A stretch of 64,000 bases of DNA from Saprospiraceae bacterium (lineage in GTDB: Bacteria; Bacteroidota; Bacteroidia; Chitinophagales; Saprospiraceae), in NCBI GenBank assembly GCA_020629515.1, contig JAHDDE010000012.1, positions 1 through 64,000 of the forward strand, written 5' to 3'. The position numbers and the translations under genes are program-made. Below are positions 36,229 through 46,067 of this stretch, in pieces (positions within the stretch are counted from its first letter, which is position 1; each line of letters opens with the position of its first letter). The notes beneath the pieces are model-generated. The model was not told the DNA's origin. It worked only from the letters and a program-made list of their open reading frames with translations, and ran no database searches.

Positions 36229-39200
36229 CTATCTCATTAAAGTGACATTACCCGCTTTGATGAATTCTTTTCCATCTACACAAGTAACTTTTACACAATA
36301 GGCATAAACATCAGGTTCCATTTCTCTGCCCGTGCCTCCAAATCTTCCATTCCACCCATCTCTTTGATTTACTGAGCGGAATACTTCTTGACCCCATCTA
36401 TTTACAATTTGAAAATCCATTTCCTCAACGAAATTACTTCGCACAAATAAAACATCATTATTCCCATCATTATTTGGACTAAACGCAGAAGGGATAAATA
36501 CATCAGTCTCATCACATAATGGTTGCTCCACTGTTATTGTAATTTGGCTCGTGGCACTACATCCATTGATATCAGTCACAATGACTGTGTAGGTTGTTGT
36601 CTCAGTAGGACTCACTATCTGGCTCATTTCAACACCTCCGTTATCCCATTCATAAGACACGATTTCTCCAGATGAGTTCGCAATAATGGTAACAGATTCA
36701 CCTAAGAATATATCTGAATCTGGATCAGCTACGACCTCAACATCTAATTCTGTAACTGTTGGATTAATCAATATAGTCTCGCTGCATCCTGACGACAAAT
36801 CTGTTACAATAACTGAAATTTCAGTTTGTTGATCTAAAGAAATCATAACATCACTGGTACCTTGCCCTGATATTACAGCAGAGGCAGGAGCCCATTCATA
36901 TGACAACATTGCATTTGTGGTATCTCTAATGGATACAGAGAAAGGTTGTCCTGCACAAACAATGGTATCGTTACCTATTTGATCTGGAAATAAAATATCC
37001 AAGTCGATATCAAATCCAGCCTTGGTAAATGTCAACATTTCAGAACAGCCATTTTCATCTGTTGCAATAACTGTGATAGAATCAAATTCTGAAGTATTAA
37101 TTGTCAAGGAATCTATCATGCTAAGCGTATCCCCAGACTGATTTACCCATACAACTGGTAAATCCAAATTATTGCTAATTCCAAATTCGATATCTTGGTC
37201 CCCTTCACATACACTTATTGATGTTTCATTATCTGTCATAAAAGTTATAATCTCTGGCACCTCAACTTCTATCATAAATGTTTCAAATTGACAAGTAGAA
37301 GAAATCGATGTCAATGTAACATTATAAGTACCTGCTCCACCGAAATCAAATGTAGGATTGGCCAAATTTGAATTATCTGAATCATCATCAGCTACCCCAA
37401 AATCCCAAGAAATATCCCCATCAATAAAATCTGGCCCCACATCAAAACTCAAGCCATAAGTGCCGCAATTATTCGCAACTTCTGGAGCTGGAGTAATTAT
37501 ATCACCGTATGGTATAACAATTGTTCCTTCGTCAATACATCCGTCAGTTGAAGTTGCAGTATAATCCAATCTTATCGTGTCTTGATCAGGCAAAGTTTGT
37601 ATAGACACTATTTTACCATTTACAGATGTTATGTTATCAGAAGGTTCCCAGATTATGTCAAAGTCTCTCATAGAATTGGATGTAGTGATATCCACCATAT
37701 CTCCATCACATATTTTACGAGGGGCATCTGATTCGACCATAAACCCATTTTCTGATAGGATTACACTATCAATCTGACTTTCACACAGCTCCGTAGAAGC
37801 TCTCAAAAAGATAGGTTGTCCTTCTGGAAGGCTTATACTTATAGTTTCTTCAGTGCTTATTACAGAACTAAAGTCCGAGAATAGAGACCATTCGTAATTG
37901 GCTTCACTCCCGTTAACACTTCCCGACAATACACCAAAGTCTCCGTTACAGGAAGTAGAATCAATTATTATATCAGCAATTAACTCATCAATTACTTCAA
38001 TTTCCAAAATATCATCAACCGAACATCCTTCTGAGTCCATTGCATTATAAGCCAAAACAATAATCTCATCTCCCTCCATAGCTGTAACGAGGATCGGCAA
38101 AGAATTAAGATCACTGGTGATACGATCATTCTCCTCCCAAGTTATTGTAACCGGATTCTGTGGATCTCCACTCACTACGTCAATTTCAGTACTATTAGAA
38201 ATACATGTGTTGAGTGGATCAAATTCAAATTCAAAATCAGGTCTATCATTTTCTATTTCTATAGAGCCAATTTCGCTATCGCAATACTCTGGATGTTCTC
38301 CACGAACATAAACAGTGACCGGTCCCTCTTGAGTCAAGTTTACCTCTACTTGAGAACCCATAGCTATAATCTCACTAAACTCATTATCAAAAGACCATTC
38401 ATAGGTAGCATCTTCTTCTTGAGAAGTCACAGACAACATCGCAGTTCCACAAACCTCTCCGTTATTATCCAACATAACATCAAGATCCAAAACATTGTCT
38501 ATCGGTATTATAAGATTATCACTTATTTCGCAACCCATCCCATCAGTAATCGTGTAGGCCAAATTAACCTCAGTCGTATGAGGTGTAGTTTGAATCATTA
38601 TAGGGTTGACAGTAATATCCGAAATAATATTGTCCGATGGCTCCCACTCTATCATCAAGTCTTGAGATACATCATTGTTAACAAAAGTAACCGTAGACAT
38701 ATCAGTTATACAGATATCTATACTATCAAATAAGATATCGTAATCAGGTTCTATCTTAAACACGTCTATAAAAGCGATATTACTCTCACAGAAGTTACGA
38801 TCAGTAGCTCTTACAAAAACCCGAGTACTATCGTTGACAACTCTTATGGCCACAAATTGAGATGTAGCCACAACATTATCAAAACTTTCTGCTAAAGCCC
38901 ATTCATACATCGTATTAGACGAGTGATCAGGATTATTGACCATTAAATTAGTAATGTCATTACAAGCTGTTGCTGAAGTATTACTAAATGTAAGCTCTAT
39001 TTCATCAGTTGTAATACGCATAAAAATTGTATCTGTAATGGTGCTCATACCATCTGTAACAGATACCACATAAGTCCTAGACTCTGTACCAACGAATGTA
39101 GGGTTTGATTTATCCTCAGAAGATTCAAAAATTAAATCATCTTCAGGCATCCAAGTATAAGTCCAAGATGAATTAGGATTAGCAATGATCCGACTCGATT

Positions 39201-42200
39201 CTCCCAGACAAACCGTTATACTATCTTCATAAATAAATTCTAAAGAAAGTACGTCTTCTTCATTATCGGGATTTAAGTCTATCACATAAGTAATACTGTA
39301 TTCACATCCTTGACTATCTGTAAAGTAATAAGTAACTCGTGCCTCCTCAGCTCCTTCTGGCAATACAATATCAATATCTCCTCCTTCTCCAGTATAGAGC
39401 TCTCCTCCTGACTCAACAGTCCATCTAATTGAAACTATATCAAATTGACTAATTAACTCTTCTTCATTAATGCTGAAAATAAACTGATTTGTAAGTGTAT
39501 CAAAACTATAGCTCGTATCTATCGATGCCTCTACTTCATCCACTTCCGTAGGTATAAGATCTATGGTAACAATCCCTGTTACCTCACAAAATCCATTACT
39601 TACAAAAAATGTATACTGCGACACACTATCATTTGCTCTAAAACCTGGATTAGTCGTACTAAATGGACTAGTTACTATCAAACCTTCTGCATCAAGCCAT
39701 GTGACCGTATTGCTTGACTCTGTATTAATCATAATGGTCTCTGTAGCCCCTTCACAAACTACTAATGTATCACGAGAAACTGTGTACTCTGGATATTCTG
39801 ACAAAATCACACTAATCGTATCCATCTGAGTAGTAATACCGTCCGTTGCACTTACTACATAGTCCGTAGCTTCACTTGGCGAAGCAATTGGATCTGAAAA
39901 GAATATTGTATCTCCAAATGTAAGTCCTTCCAATGGTGTCCATGTATAGGTTATTCCCTCTACCGCACTATTCAATAACGCAACTGGATCTCCAGAACAG
40001 ACGGCCACAGTATCACTTCCCCCACCAGCTAAATCGATGAAATCATTTGTATCATCGTCTCCATTGTTTAGATCTATCACATAAGTAATACTGTATTCAC
40101 ATCCTTGACTATCTGTAAAGTAATAAGTAACTCGTGCCTCCTCAGCTCCTTCTGGCAATACAATATCAATATCTCCTCCTTCTCCAGTATAGAGCTCTCC
40201 TCCTGACTCAACAGTCCATCTAATTGAAACTATATCAAATTGACTAATTAACTCTTCTTCATTAATGCTGAAAATAAACTGATTTGTAAGTGTATCAAAA
40301 CTATAGCTCGTATCTATCGATGCCTCTACTTCATCCACTTCCGTAGGTATAAGATCTATGGTAACAATCCCTGTTACCTCACAAAATCCATTACTTACAA
40401 AAAATGTATACTGCGACACACTATCATTTGCTCTAAAACCTGGATTAGTCGTACTAAATGGACTAGTTACTATCAAACCTTCTGCATCAAGCCATGTGAC
40501 CGTATTGCTTGACTCTGTATTAATCATAATGGTCTCTGTAGCCCCTTCACAAACTACTAATGTATCACGAGAAACTGTGTACTCTGGATATTCTGACAAA
40601 ATCACACTAATCGTATCCATCTGAGTAGTAATACCGTCCGTTGCACTTACTACATAGTCCGTAGCTTCACTTGGCGAAGCAATTGGATCTGAAAAGAATA
40701 TTGTATCTCCAAATGTAAGTCCTTCCAATGGTGTCCATGTATAGGTTATTCCCTCTACCGCACTATTCAATAACGCAACTGGATCTCCAGAACAGACGGC
40801 CACAGTATCACTTCCCCCACCAGCTAAATCGATGAAATCACTTAAAATATCATCAAATAAATACTCCGCATTATAGCAAATAAAATACTCACACCCTTGG
40901 CTATCTGTGAAGTAATAAGTCACTTTAACATCTGATAAGTAGGGCAAATTAATATCTATAAATGTTCCTTCACCACTAAATACTAAATCGTCTAATTCTG
41001 CCACCCATCGTATTGAAACAATATCAAAAAGACTAAATAACTCAGATTCATTTATTGAAAAGGTGAATTGATTATTGATAGTATCAAAAATAAAATTCGC
41101 TTCTATCGCTTCGGATACTTCATCAAATTCTGTAGGTATTAGATCTATTGTTATGGTATCAAAAACTTCACAAAATCCATTAGAAACAACGAATACATAT
41201 TCATTTGTACCTTCAGTCCCTATAAAACCAGGATTGGTAGGACTATATGGATCGGATATTACTAAACCTTCTGTAGTCAACCATGTTACGGTGTTACTTG
41301 GATTGGTATTAATCAAAATGTTCTCTAATGCGCCTTCACAAAGCTCAAGCGTATCTCTTGAAATATCGTATTCCGGGTAATCAGATAGAATAACTGTTAT
41401 CTCTCCTCTCACTGTATCTTCTTCATTGTAAGCTAATACAGAGTAAACAGTATTCTCCGATGGCGCCGCCATAGGATCAGAAAAGAATTCGTTGTCTTCA
41501 AAAGTTAAACCTTCTAAAGGAGTCCATTCATAAGTTACTCCAGGTCTTGCACTTTCTAATAGCGCAACTGGATCACCAGAACAACTGGCTACTGTATCGG
41601 CTACAAAGTCTATTTCAAGGGCTTTATTCAGACAAGCTCTAACATTATATTCAAAATCCCTTCTTGTCGCGGATAAAAGTTCGCCGTCTCGCCATTCTTC
41701 AACCATGACACCTACAAGAAATTGACCTATTGTATTTGGAACTGCGGTAATTAATCCAGTATTGACATCCACTTCTAATGGAGTTCCACCTAACAAATTA
41801 TCTAAACCATAACCTGGTGCAAATGCAACTTCATCATATGGGCGCCCTGCAGGTGGTTGTGGTTTAGGATCATCAATAGTAGCTCCAGCATGTGGGATAT
41901 ATAGTTTATAAGCTAATGAGTCACCATCTATGTCAATAGCGCTGTGATCAAATGACAAAGGCTCATTTGCACAAATAACAACTTCCGGCCATTCTATAAA
42001 TTCTGGACTACTATTACATTCATTTAAAGTCTTTTCGGTAAGACAAATGAATTTTGTAGTACCGGTTTCTAACGGATTAATAATATTATTAAGGGTGATA
42101 TTCCTACAACACCTTTGATAAGCTAAAACATATCCCTTTTCTCTAAAAGGTAAGAATACCTGAGCCTTATATACTGCTTCTGACACGCAAATTGGTCCAC

Positions 42201-42549
42201 CTAAAAACTCGCAGTCCTCACTTTGCACATCAACTTCGACAACTTCATCATAGGTCATTACTACTTGACCAAATCGGCCTAAAAACTGCAAGGGACGACC
42301 ATTATTATCAAATATTCCGACTATTGCTGGATTATCAAAAGGTGCATCGGGTGCTCCATTAATACAGTCACGTCGCACAATCAACGTAATTTCATAGAAG
42401 TCATTACCCAGACACTTAAAACTCATATCAGTGCCTACCAAATGCGTTGCATTAAGCGGGTTAATAGAGAAAAAGAATCCTATTAGTATTAGACTACTAA
42501 TTCGTGTGACAATATTTTGATATGCTTTACTCATTCTTGGAAATATCAT
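36229..42549 (-). CDS. Giant secreted multi-repeat protein with gliding-motility/T9SS type B C-terminal domain
   Basis: A 2106-residue exported surface protein. The signal peptide ends near residue 34; a second in-frame ATG five codons in is also possible. Residues 35-310 form an N-terminal module seen in this protein class, with the cysteine motif YQRCCRN. Residues 315-1095 hold three units of about 265 residues: the first diverged, the next two identical. More Ig/PKD-like beta domains follow, including a PKD-like stretch with GDISWDFG. The last 90 residues are the gliding-motility-associated C-terminal domain (FIPSAFSPNNDGNNDVLF, FQIVNRWGQEVFRS, DGWNG), a type IX secretion sorting signal that anchors or releases proteins at the surface. 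It is third in a PorP/SprF-OmpA-like-giant series, 15 bases after the OmpA-like gene. Probably an adhesin; no enzyme domain seen. Confidence 0.9.
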   Translation of the reverse strand: MIFPRMSKAYQNIVTRISSLILIGFFFSINPLNATHLVGTDMSFKCLGNDFYEITLIVRRDCINGAPDAPFDNPAIVGIFDNNGRPLQFLGRFGQVVMTYDEVVEVDVQSEDCEFLGGPICVSEAVYKAQVFLPFREKGYVLAYQRCCRNITLNNIINPLETGTTKFICLTEKTLNECNSSPEFIEWPEVVICANEPLSFDHSAIDIDGDSLAYKLYIPHAGATIDDPKPQPPAGRPYDEVAFAPGYGLDNLLGGTPLEVDVNTGLITAVPNTIGQFLVGVMVEEWRDGELLSATRRDFEYNVRACLNKALEIDFVADTVASCSGDPVALLESARPGVTYEWTPLEGLTFEDNEFFSDPMAAPSENTVYSVLAYNEEDTVRGEITVILSDYPEYDISRDTLELCEGALENILINTNPSNTVTWLTTEGLVISDPYSPTNPGFIGTEGTNEYVFVVSNGFCEVFDTITIDLIPTEFDEVSEAIEANFIFDTINNQFTFSINESELFSLFDIVSIRWVAELDDLVFSGEGTFIDINLPYLSDVKVTYYFTDSQGCEYFICYNAEYLFDDILSDFIDLAGGGSDTVAVCSGDPVALLNSAVEGITYTWTPLEGLTFGDTIFFSDPIASPSEATDYVVSATDGITTQMDTISVILSEYPEYTVSRDTLVVCEGATETIMINTESSNTVTWLDAEGLIVTSPFSTTNPGFRANDSVSQYTFFVSNGFCEVTGIVTIDLIPTEVDEVEASIDTSYSFDTLTNQFIFSINEEELISQFDIVSIRWTVESGGELYTGEGGDIDIVLPEGAEEARVTYYFTDSQGCEYSITYVIDLNNGDDDTNDFIDLAGGGSDTVAVCSGDPVALLNSAVEGITYTWTPLEGLTFGDTIFFSDPIASPSEATDYVVSATDGITTQMDTISVILSEYPEYTVSRDTLVVCEGATETIMINTESSNTVTWLDAEGLIVTSPFSTTNPGFRANDSVSQYTFFVSNGFCEVTGIVTIDLIPTEVDEVEASIDTSYSFDTLTNQFIFSINEEELISQFDIVSIRWTVESGGELYTGEGGDIDIVLPEGAEEARVTYYFTDSQGCEYSITYVIDLNPDNEEDVLSLEFIYEDSITVCLGESSRIIANPNSSWTYTWMPEDDLIFESSEDKSNPTFVGTESRTYVVSVTDGMSTITDTIFMRITTDEIELTFSNTSATACNDITNLMVNNPDHSSNTMYEWALAESFDNVVATSQFVAIRVVNDSTRVFVRATDRNFCESNIAFIDVFKIEPDYDILFDSIDICITDMSTVTFVNNDVSQDLMIEWEPSDNIISDITVNPIMIQTTPHTTEVNLAYTITDGMGCEISDNLIIPIDNVLDLDVMLDNNGEVCGTAMLSVTSQEEDATYEWSFDNEFSEIIAMGSQVEVNLTQEGPVTVYVRGEHPEYCDSEIGSIEIENDRPDFEFEFDPLNTCISNSTEIDVVSGDPQNPVTITWEENDRITSDLNSLPILVTAMEGDEIIVLAYNAMDSEGCSVDDILEIEVIDELIADIIIDSTSCNGDFGVLSGSVNGSEANYEWSLFSDFSSVISTEETISISLPEGQPIFLRASTELCESQIDSVILSENGFMVESDAPRKICDGDMVDITTSNSMRDFDIIWEPSDNITSVNGKIVSIQTLPDQDTIRLDYTATSTDGCIDEGTIVIPYGDIITPAPEVANNCGTYGLSFDVGPDFIDGDISWDFGVADDDSDNSNLANPTFDFGGAGTYNVTLTSISSTCQFETFMIEVEVPEIITFMTDNETSISVCEGDQDIEFGISNNLDLPVVWVNQSGDTLSMIDSLTINTSEFDSITVIATDENGCSEMLTFTKAGFDIDLDILFPDQIGNDTIVCAGQPFSVSIRDTTNAMLSYEWAPASAVISGQGTSDVMISLDQQTEISVIVTDLSSGCSETILINPTVTELDVEVVADPDSDIFLGESVTIIANSSGEIVSYEWDNGGVEMSQIVSPTETTTYTVIVTDINGCSATSQITITVEQPLCDETDVFIPSAFSPNNDGNNDVLFVRSNFVEEMDFQIVNRWGQEVFRSVNQRDGWNGRFGGTGREMEPDVYAYCVKVTCVDGKEFIKAGNVTLMR
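39278..40045. repeat. Tandem repeat copy A (768 bp) inside the giant gene
   Basis: Line-by-line reading finds no difference between this segment and copy B. They are spaced 795 bp apart (265 codons, in frame) and separated by a 27-bp unmatched spacer. It encodes about residues 835-1091 of the giant protein. Confidence 0.95.
40073..40840. repeat. Tandem repeat copy B (768 bp) inside the giant gene
   Basis: Apparently identical to copy A over all 768 bases; encodes about residues 570-826. A third, clearly diverged unit of the same kind lies next to it in the coding order, at about 40870-41605. Confidence 0.95.
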
Positions 42550-42564
42550 GATATGAGTGAATAA

Positions 42565-45009
42565 TTATTCGTTTAAAAATTGAGACTTAATCTCAACAAT
42601 CTCAACTCTTCGTTCTTTCGAAGCCTCAGGACTGTATACGGAATTTCTTCTATCATAGAAGACATCACTTACATTAGCTGGAGCCAAATTCTCACCGTAA
42701 GACAATTGTGTTATTTTCAACTGTCCATTGTCAATAAAAGGAACAAAAGCTCCATTTAAATAATTTCTTATGTCCCGCTCAACGGAGACTACTCTTCTTT
42801 GACTTAAAGCCAAATTATAACGACTATCAGCTCTTGGACTCGCAAAACCACGAATGGAGAGTTCAAATGTTTTTCCTTGATTCAATTGTTTGAGCATGGC
42901 TGATAAAAATGATTGAAAATTATCATACCCAGCTTTAACATCATTTTCAAAAAAATCATCAATCCTTTGTTCGCCTAAATATTTCTCCGATTCAGTCATA
43001 GAACTCACATACTCCTCTTTAAATTCAGCTTTTTTAATCACATAATCATCAAAAGTGGATGTATAATCTAAATTAGTTGTTAATGAGACAGATCTCTGAC
43101 CAGGCCTGTCATTATCAAAATATAATGCTAACGGTAGATAAATATTTAAATCTTTTCTACCTAAATATAAGTTCTTACTAACTATTCCTGTACCGTCATC
43201 ATCACGAGCTATAAACTCCATAACTGCATCTTCATATCTATCCCTCGAAGCTATCAAACGATACCTATGATCAGGTTTAATAACAAATTGATAGTCATGC
43301 CCACCATCATTAGTCACTACTACTTCTTGTATGGAGTTATCAGTTAGATCAATTAATCGTATGGTTGTACCTGGTAATGGCTCTTTGGATATGTCGTCGA
43401 AAGTAAATACCTCTAAATCCAAAGAAGTACGTTTCAAGAAAATCTTACGGACGATATCTTCAGATTTATAAATTCTATTTGTGTTGATATTGATGGTATC
43501 TGTAGCATAGCCCTCTTTTGAACTAACAATCAGGTATTCTTGCCCCCGCTCTAATTGAAAAACATGATCTCCTGCATCAATATTTGACAAGGTAGCAATG
43601 ACTCTTCCCGTTTCTGGATCTATAAGTCGCACGTCCACACCTCGCAAGGTATCAAGAGTGGTCCCATCAAAAGTCAGTGCATTTAGGTTAATATCAACAT
43701 CTTCTATGCTGCCTTCATAAATATCATAACAACATGATTCATTAAGAGGGTCAATATACTTAGTACCAATTCGATTGGAGGAAAACAGCACTTTGTCGCC
43801 ATTTTCATTTTCTGAATAGTAAATGTCATTAAAACTACTATTGATCGGCACCCCTAAGTTCTCTGGATTATCATATCCGGTACTTGACCTTTCGACCCGA
43901 TATATATCAAATCCACCTAAGGAAGTATATCCCTGGGAACTAAAATATAACGTTTGTGAGGTGCTATTAAAATAGGGAGTGATATCGTCTTCTGCAGTAT
44001 TAATCGAACCAATATTTTCAGGATTTGAGTATTTATTTACACCTTCTATAATACTATACCAAATATCCATTTGTCCTTCACCACCTTCCCTATCTGAACT
44101 AAAAAATAGTACTTCCTCACCAGAAATTCGGTCTAATCCAATGGATGGCTGGGTAGTAGTGTGAGAAGCTGAGTTAATGAAGTCAGGTAGTTTGGATTCT
44201 TCTCCAAGCGTACCGTCTCCAAGAATGGCACGGCTGTATAGATCACATCTAATATCACTCGAGTTTTTATAATCACAAATGGTATAATAAATTCTCGATT
44301 TATTAAGATTATAAGCTAAGTGCGCAGTATGTAGGTCCTCCTTGTTGAGACCGTTACCATATTGTTCAGATTCAATCTCTGAAGATTTTAAAATCTTAGA
44401 AATTACACGAGTTGGTATGTTTTGTTTGTTCTTTGGTGCAAAAGCTAAGGAAGAATATATAATTTCATTCTCATCATACAAGGCCCCAAATTCAGAAAAT
44501 TCTGTATTAATATTTTCACCTAATCGGTTAATCTTGACGTTTTGTGCTTCATTTAATAAAAGTTCTTTTGACCATTCAGAAGAACTAATTTGTTTTTTTG
44601 CTTTAGCAGTGAGATACTCATCTTCGTTTTCCTGTTCTGATAGATAGATGTTATAATAAGTAATAGCTTCATCATAATCACCCTGCATTTGTAACATTTC
44701 TGCTAAATGATAGGACGCCAAAGGATATATGCCATCACTATCCCGATCAACAACCTTTCGATAGTATTCTTCTGCAATGTTATATGATGAGAATTCACGT
44801 GCAGATTCAGCTACATTATACATAATCTCAATACTCGAAGTGTCAAACTCCAAAACCTCCAAGTAATACGACAAGGCACTGTAATAATCCTTTTCCATAA
44901 AGGCTTTTTCGGCAGCATTGCTATACTGTGACTGACTTTGAGATAATCCCAGAGACACGAAAAATCCAATACTAAATAGAGTTAATAAATACTTCATACA
45001 TTTCTTCAT
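42565..45009 (-). CDS. TPR/PD40/OmpA-like outer-membrane protein
   Basis: An envelope protein of about 814 residues. Order: signal peptide (LLTLFSIGFFVSLGLSQ), TPR-like helical repeats to about 150, a PD40/WD40-like beta-propeller region (IGLDRISGEEVLFFSSDREG; LYFSSQGYTSLGGFDIYRVE; about 200-440), two carboxypeptidase-regulatory-like repeats (FDGTTLDTLRGVDVRLIDPE; about 450-600) and a C-terminal OmpA-like peptidoglycan-binding domain (LSIRGFASPRADSRYNLALS). This architecture is common beside PorP/SprF genes in Bacteroidota. I chose the ATG overlapping the PorP stop (TAATG); an ATG 15 bases upstream is also in frame. Confidence 0.85.
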   Translation of the reverse strand: MKKCMKYLLTLFSIGFFVSLGLSQSQSQYSNAAEKAFMEKDYYSALSYYLEVLEFDTSSIEIMYNVAESAREFSSYNIAEEYYRKVVDRDSDGIYPLASYHLAEMLQMQGDYDEAITYYNIYLSEQENEDEYLTAKAKKQISSSEWSKELLLNEAQNVKINRLGENINTEFSEFGALYDENEIIYSSLAFAPKNKQNIPTRVISKILKSSEIESEQYGNGLNKEDLHTAHLAYNLNKSRIYYTICDYKNSSDIRCDLYSRAILGDGTLGEESKLPDFINSASHTTTQPSIGLDRISGEEVLFFSSDREGGEGQMDIWYSIIEGVNKYSNPENIGSINTAEDDITPYFNSTSQTLYFSSQGYTSLGGFDIYRVERSSTGYDNPENLGVPINSSFNDIYYSENENGDKVLFSSNRIGTKYIDPLNESCCYDIYEGSIEDVDINLNALTFDGTTLDTLRGVDVRLIDPETGRVIATLSNIDAGDHVFQLERGQEYLIVSSKEGYATDTININTNRIYKSEDIVRKIFLKRTSLDLEVFTFDDISKEPLPGTTIRLIDLTDNSIQEVVVTNDGGHDYQFVIKPDHRYRLIASRDRYEDAVMEFIARDDDGTGIVSKNLYLGRKDLNIYLPLALYFDNDRPGQRSVSLTTNLDYTSTFDDYVIKKAEFKEEYVSSMTESEKYLGEQRIDDFFENDVKAGYDNFQSFLSAMLKQLNQGKTFELSIRGFASPRADSRYNLALSQRRVVSVERDIRNYLNGAFVPFIDNGQLKITQLSYGENLAPANVSDVFYDRRNSVYSPEASKERRVEIVEIKSQFLNE

Positions 45010-46043
45010 TAGAATATTGGACATACCTTCACTTTTTTAAATGGTTTAACATTTGTGATGATATAGGTAAAATGAAGCTCAAAAGTCCTTGGACTATGTC
45101 TCCTATCTACCGGAAGTCCTCCATTTAAGTCTCGGAATCCGGAAACATCAATATCATAATTGGCTGAGAGATAATATTTCTCTTTGTATTTAAAAGCTAT
45201 TGTGGGCCAAAAGCTACCTGTATTTCTATATCCTAATCCAAGATGAAGCTCAAATTCTTTGCCCCTATCTTGATTAACATGAATGATACCTAAACCTCCA
45301 ATTTGGAATTCTTTATAATCTCCCTGCCACTGACCTAATGCATTTAATTGGAGATCGAATTTTTGTGCAAGTCTAAATGTACCAATTCCTGTAAGGGCAA
45401 ATCTCCTTGGTAAAGCAATGGGATCTAAATCATCTCTAAAGGCTACGTTTGGCTTAAATATGTGATAAAGTCCTGCCCCGATATCAAGTTTTGTCCGTTT
45501 TGATTTTTGCCATCGATAATTGAGGCCTATACCCGTCTCTAAAAAGTTCGCACTTTCAGCATTTAGATTTTCTCCTGGATCTAACGAGAGATCAAAAGTT
45601 CGGCCATTCCATTGGCTATCCCAAGTCAATGAATTGAGATCTAAGGCTCGGCTCGCATAACCAATTAAAAGGCCACCAGTAATAAGATTATTTTCATTTA
45701 AGATTTTAGTATAGCTCCCAGTCAGGTTTAAGTTGAATAAAGAGAGATTAGCTATTTCACTTTGGTCATCATAATTAAACAGGATCCCTCCCGAAAAAAA
45801 ATGATTAACATCTTTCTTTGGATAAAATTTGAGATCATAAGAGCCTGAAAATGTAGTCCAAGGGACTACCGAGGCCCATTGATTCCTATAACTCAAATTC
45901 AATCTTTTATCCCCATTGAAAATCCCAGTTTTTGCCGGATTAATGTTCAAAGGAGAATTGTAAAACTGAGAATAATGAATATCCTGCGCACCAATAGCAC
46001 TGGCTACTAACAAGAAAAGAATGTAGATAAAAAATCTCTTCAT
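45009..46043 (-). CDS. PorP/SprF-family type IX secretion outer-membrane protein
   Basis: A barrel protein of about 344 residues with signal peptide MKRFFIYILFLLVASAIGAQ. The family's opening DIHYSQFYNSPLNINPAKTG is followed by SYRNQWASV and a run of beta strands ending at the C-terminus. PorP/SprF proteins work with type IX secretion and are needed for surface localisation of partner adhesins such as SprB. Here the partner is very likely the giant protein two genes downstream. The ATG at 46043 was chosen because it begins the signal peptide; another lies eight codons upstream. First gene of the three-gene surface locus. Confidence 0.9.
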   Translation of the reverse strand: MKRFFIYILFLLVASAIGAQDIHYSQFYNSPLNINPAKTGIFNGDKRLNLSYRNQWASVVPWTTFSGSYDLKFYPKKDVNHFFSGGILFNYDDQSEIANLSLFNLNLTGSYTKILNENNLITGGLLIGYASRALDLNSLTWDSQWNGRTFDLSLDPGENLNAESANFLETGIGLNYRWQKSKRTKLDIGAGLYHIFKPNVAFRDDLDPIALPRRFALTGIGTFRLAQKFDLQLNALGQWQGDYKEFQIGGLGIIHVNQDRGKEFELHLGLGYRNTGSFWPTIAFKYKEKYYLSANYDIDVSGFRDLNGGLPVDRRHSPRTFELHFTYIITNVKPFKKVKVCPIF

Positions 46044-46067
46044 CTCAGGTTGTCTAGGTTTGTTCAT

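Follow-up and report, generated by a model that had tools for sequence, protein, structure and literature searches.

Two copies of a 768-bp block, identical at every position, lie in the gene of a giant predicted T9SS type-B surface protein, whose stalk is an array of units with three domains each. The identity probably reflects recent homogenisation of units within this array, which we take to be a standing one. The window analysed here is the whole 64,000-nucleotide stretch of DNA; its relevant features are collected in Table 1. We infer that recombination between units, and not one fresh duplication, produced the identity.

A scripted self-comparison of the window confirmed that the two copies (W2 and W3 in Table 1) match over 768 bp without any difference. 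The offset of 795 bp corresponds to 265 codons, so that the reading frame is kept. Both points had been made in a sequence-only reading of the window, which had also placed a third, diverged unit beside the pair; this unit (W1) is present as described. The fourth, degenerate unit was absent from that reading. The 768-bp pair was the sole exact direct repeat of at least 30 bp in the window, which excludes chance as the source of the identity. The identical block encodes 256 residues of the 265-codon period, and the 27 nt left over from the 795-bp period occur a single time. There were no differences between W2 and W3 at approximately 172 silent sites (Nei-Gojobori count), corresponding to a silent divergence below about 1.8% per site (95% bound). 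Silent divergence between W1 and W2 was near saturation (dS of about 1.5), and no recent tract shared between W1 and W2/W3 was found. The array is made up of three near-full units (W1, W2 and W3) and the degenerate fourth unit, which adjoins the identical pair and is weakly matched at the corresponding position in the sister species. Over the 3.9-Mb assembly, the unit DNA matched only the two copies and an adjoining 68%-matching stretch, while the protein sequence of one unit matched W1, both copies and the degenerate unit, with only remote domain matches elsewhere.

Table 1. Features of the giant-protein locus (positions in the window)
Feature	Position	Strand	Remarks
ORF of 2106 aa, predicted T9SS type-B substrate	36229..42549	-	conserved N-terminal head, beta-domain repeats forming the stalk, CHU_C signal at the C terminus
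CHU_C / type-B T9SS sorting domain	36274..36495	-	
Degenerate fourth unit, with Ig_7-like domain	38494..39228	-	33% aa identity
Identical block, copy W3 (C-terminal copy)	39278..40045	-	codons 835-1091
27-nt spacer, LNNGDDDT linker	40046..40072	-	present once only, unlike either outer flank
Identical block, copy W2 (N-terminal copy)	40073..40840	-	codons 570-826
Diverged unit W1	40870..41601	-	61% aa and 64% nt identity to W2/W3
N-terminal head domain, residues 33-312	41614..42453	-	41-72% identity in 36 syntenic relatives; AlphaFold2 mean pLDDT 90.6
TPR + PD40 + carboxypeptidase-regulatory-like + OmpA-like protein (819 aa), PorE-like	42565..45024	-	
PorP/SprF-family carrier, 352 aa	45009..46067	-	C-tail KVCPIF

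The sequences at the edges of the block do not fit a clean 795-bp tandem duplication, as the arrangement had been read before. A clean head-to-tail copy of this length would also leave a second spacer outside the pair, on one side or the other. The spacer between the copies (TCTAAACAATGGAGACGATGATACAAA) was sought in both outer flanks, that before W2 (TTTGATGATATTTTAAG) and that after W3 (CTTAAATCCCGATAATGAAG), and it matched neither; the spacer was not duplicated, indicating that this was not a clean tandem duplication. Moreover, homology passes one edge of the block with synonymous differences. Past the C-terminal edge, Asp-Leu-Asn is encoded on both sides (GAT CTA AAC vs. GAC TTA AAT), all three codons differing synonymously. 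In the sister species, each unit is likewise followed by Asp-Leu, and both residues behind a junction would agree by chance in about 0.6% of cases (random pairs in the 2106-aa protein). Homology that continues beyond an identical block with silent differences looks like the end of a conversion tract, and these few bases, a short piece of evidence, are suggestive of one.

Next, we compared the array with its orthologue (locus L019) in genome G002, which is, apart from the genome studied here, the single near-complete one of the genus. This orthologue is 2509 aa long and contains four units with a period of 253 aa. Exact tracts of up to 98 bp alternate with diverged tracts in this array. Units 2 and 4 (G2 vs. 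G4) were 90-100% identical over approximately the first two thirds and about 45-65% identical in the remainder, and units 1 and 3 (G1 vs. G3) were about 89-96% identical in the last third and 53-80% identical earlier. Runs of concordant polymorphic sites were longer than permuted ones in five of the six unit pairs (p <= 0.0015, four of them at the floor of 2000 permutations), in a test that is also sensitive to uneven constraint along the unit. In unit trees, domains 1 and 2 grouped by genome of origin (support 99 and 100). In the domain 3 tree, the last unit of the sister array split from the other three (support 100); its domain 3 was 53% identical to W2/W3, vs. 44-48% to its three counterparts in the same array. 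This fits an array edge escaping homogenisation. Clustering by genome, with the last domain of the last unit excepted, suggests that the arrays turn over within each lineage while the edge lags, and hence that the array has persisted through repeated homogenisation and changes in size. A third genome of the same genus (58% complete) contained nothing that matched the unit.

Homologous recombination between units of one gene would account for these observations, be it gene conversion or an unequal exchange involving several of them. One unit would have been replaced by a copy of the neighbouring unit, in either direction and in one or more events, and the short acidic linker, unlike both flanks, would have stayed behind after the replacement. 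Since the unit comprises an integral number of codons, such recombination could also gain or lose blocks of 253-265 residues. Stalk length would then drift between lineages, while the N-terminal head and the C-terminal signal remain conserved. The comparison covers a single genome for each of the two species, and the sister array is distant (about 45% aa identity between units).

The main competing account is a single fresh tandem duplication of one unit, with the 27-nt spacer as a short insertion or slipped junction and with neither an earlier second unit nor ongoing homogenisation. It would explain the perfect identity over almost the whole period and the far greater divergence of W1, which shows no recent exchange, and a junction with filler bases is possible. 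However, the linker encoded by the spacer is acidic, as is usual, and opens with the Asp-Leu that follows the sister-species units; three codons in a row are synonymously changed relative to the right flank; and the sister species has a multi-unit array with recombination-like mosaics. We regard this account as possible, and clearly less likely than homogenisation. The earlier reading had offered two routes, a duplication in the very recent past or gene conversion that is still going on: a recent shared origin of the copies is supported and the second route is favoured. Selection on the protein sequence alone can be rejected on the silent sites and is next to impossible as the cause; the units are structured domains, whose sequence selection could keep alike, but the complete silent identity of W2 and W3 contrasts with the W1-W2 divergence.

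It is also improbable that the identity is an effect of assembly, with a wrong copy number or with two moderately different copies merged so that identity is overstated. The 3.9-Mb assembly is in 98 contigs, 768 bp is longer than short reads, and assemblers can merge near-identical repeats. Against this, the locus has three different junctions (left flank-unit, unit-spacer-unit and unit-right flank), so that a faithful assembly graph has to traverse the unit at least twice, and the assembly holds no stray contig with a variant copy. Shared k-mers, sought at 20 contig starts as a mark of assembler type, were not found. The three junctions make at least two copies likely, while a higher copy number, or a few substitutions masked by the consensus, is possible; copy number and perfect identity rest on this one 98-contig assembly.

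Each unit of the array corresponds to about three small beta domains, with moderate confidence in the model: the predicted structure of the W2-W3 pair was all-beta and compatible with three small domains per unit (mean pLDDT 67 and pTM 0.30, from a shallow alignment). In Pfam/NCBIfam searches the degenerate unit matched Ig_7, and a PKD match stayed below the threshold. A profile built from the unit pair matched the grappling hook protein GhpA of Aureispira sp. CCB-QB1 (5898 aa; PDB 9flp, 9flw, 9fly and others) with an E-value of 9.8e-49; six stretches were individually significant, mainly in unit domains 1-2, and the best stretch spanned domains 1 and 2. Aureispira belongs to the Saprospiraceae, the family of the bacterium studied here. 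GhpA fragments were among the top fold matches, alongside many animal Ig chains, which are expected for strings of Ig-like domains; the TM-scores of this fold search were low and carry no weight alone. By this profile match, the first two domains of the unit are related in sequence to the stalk domains of GhpA. Neither a head-domain profile nor a phmmer search with the whole protein matched GhpA. We therefore rejected the giant protein as a GhpA orthologue, as only the repeat-unit profile matches; the two proteins differ in size (5898 vs. 2106 aa) and have related stalk domains.

The earlier view of the protein as a secreted surface protein is supported by a type-B C-terminal signal and a PorP/SprF partner gene. 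The type-B sorting domain lies at residues 2019-2106 (TIGR04131, 37.8 bits, cut-off 35; PF13585, 52.8 bits, cut-off 27). The head domain is family-wide and has many invariant cysteines, including a Cys-Cys pair; a PDB structure search with it gave no convincing match, the weak ones being cadherin- and Ig-like. The carrier scored 135.6 bits with TIGR03519 (cut-off 90.55) and 107.7 with PF11751 (cut-off 22.3). In the direction of transcription (36229-46067, minus strand) the carrier gene comes first, followed by the PorE-like gene and then by the substrate gene. There are 16 bases of overlap between the carrier and PorE-like genes, and only 15 bases separate the PorE-like gene from the giant gene, which makes it likely that the three form one operon. 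The 819-aa neighbour scored 112.8 bits with the NCBIfam model T9SS_PorE, below the cut-off of 600, and was also below the CHU_0125 cut-off, though related; its identification as PorE was therefore rejected and we refer to it as PorE-like only.

Type-B proteins are known to have dedicated PorP/SprF-like carriers, and a complex of PorE, PorP and a type-B protein has been isolated (PMC9143113, PMC12618676). As in the SprB-SprF and PG1035-PorP-PorE systems (PMC9143113, PMC12618676), a type-B CTD protein is encoded here near a PorP/SprF carrier, and the PorE-PorP-PG1035 complex has the same three kinds of protein as this locus, including a PorE-like OmpA protein. By analogy, the carrier, the PorE-like protein and the giant protein may work as such a complex does, in which case the PorP-like neighbour would display the giant protein on the surface. 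The gene order differs from that of F. johnsoniae, in which the carrier is commonly directly downstream of its substrate (PMC12618676), whereas here it is first in the run. All eight carriers recovered (the one here and those of L019, L058, L060, L068, L070, L071 and L077) end in a K-x-C-P-I-F/Y C-tail. The Cys-x-Cys of the SprF C-tail bonds to the gliding track in F. johnsoniae (PMC12635249), and the C-tail cysteine here could possibly be a similar tether.

Periscope Proteins (SasG, Rib, Sgo_0707, Esp, CdrA) alter stalk length through near-identical DNA repeats (PMC8201768). The protein described here shares with them long tandem repeats of structured domains, near-identical at the DNA level, in the stalk of a surface protein (768 bp identical, a 265-codon period and predicted beta domains related to the GhpA stalk). 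It also shares conserved ends, the conserved head being a candidate for the functional N-terminal domain that anchored Periscope Proteins have. Variation of repeat number from strain to strain is what defines these proteins; here the number differs between lineages, three vs. four in two species of the genus, each represented by one genome, and the protein is thus a candidate member. It differs from them in being a Bacteroidota T9SS type-B protein with other anchoring and with only two fully identical units. Another protein of this phylum, associated with gliding and the T9SS, also varies in repeat length (PMC8400371); that system has many more units, and the unit here has 265 aa. It is a speculative and rather unlikely extension that the protein, with its GhpA-related stalk, is a length-switching ('periscope') adhesin on a PorP-like carrier, perhaps tethered to a moving internal track via the conserved C-terminal cysteine. 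If its length varies between isolates, the principle of the variable-length adhesin would extend to the T9SS. For now, the locus is a clear, though not unusual, example of homogenised repeats within the gene of a surface protein, variable-length repeat surface proteins being already known. What the locus offers is a Bacteroidota T9SS type-B protein whose stalk units turn over visibly at the DNA level within one genus, with stalk domains tied by sequence to a structurally solved grappling hook of the same family.

Length variation, which the sequence-only reading had expected from in-frame recombination, was seen between species only. A scan of genome contigs with the giant protein as query found no relative. 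The gene neighbourhood is common in the wider family, of which 144 of 150 genomes carry a relative of the PorE-like gene at E <= 1e-60. In 40 syntenic relatives the next large ORF had 833-3360 aa (one cut by a contig end). The ends of the protein align in 81-97% of the relatives and residues 401-1600 in approximately 47-83%, at 23-32% identity. Length variation from isolate to isolate is plausible, and stalk length may affect reach or adhesion. Exact repeats over 34 bp occurred in none of the 40 relatives but the sister. A general occurrence of exact repeats in CHU_C genes of the genus was rejected, as none of 17 other large CHU_C loci in the two genomes (this one and the sister) has an internal exact repeat of at least 24 bp. 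Several relatives carry strong protein repeats of their own with other periods, found by ungapped self-windows: in L090, L080, L086 and L117, 59, 57, 52 and 52 of 60 residues were identical, at periods of 356, 732, 613 and 157 aa respectively.
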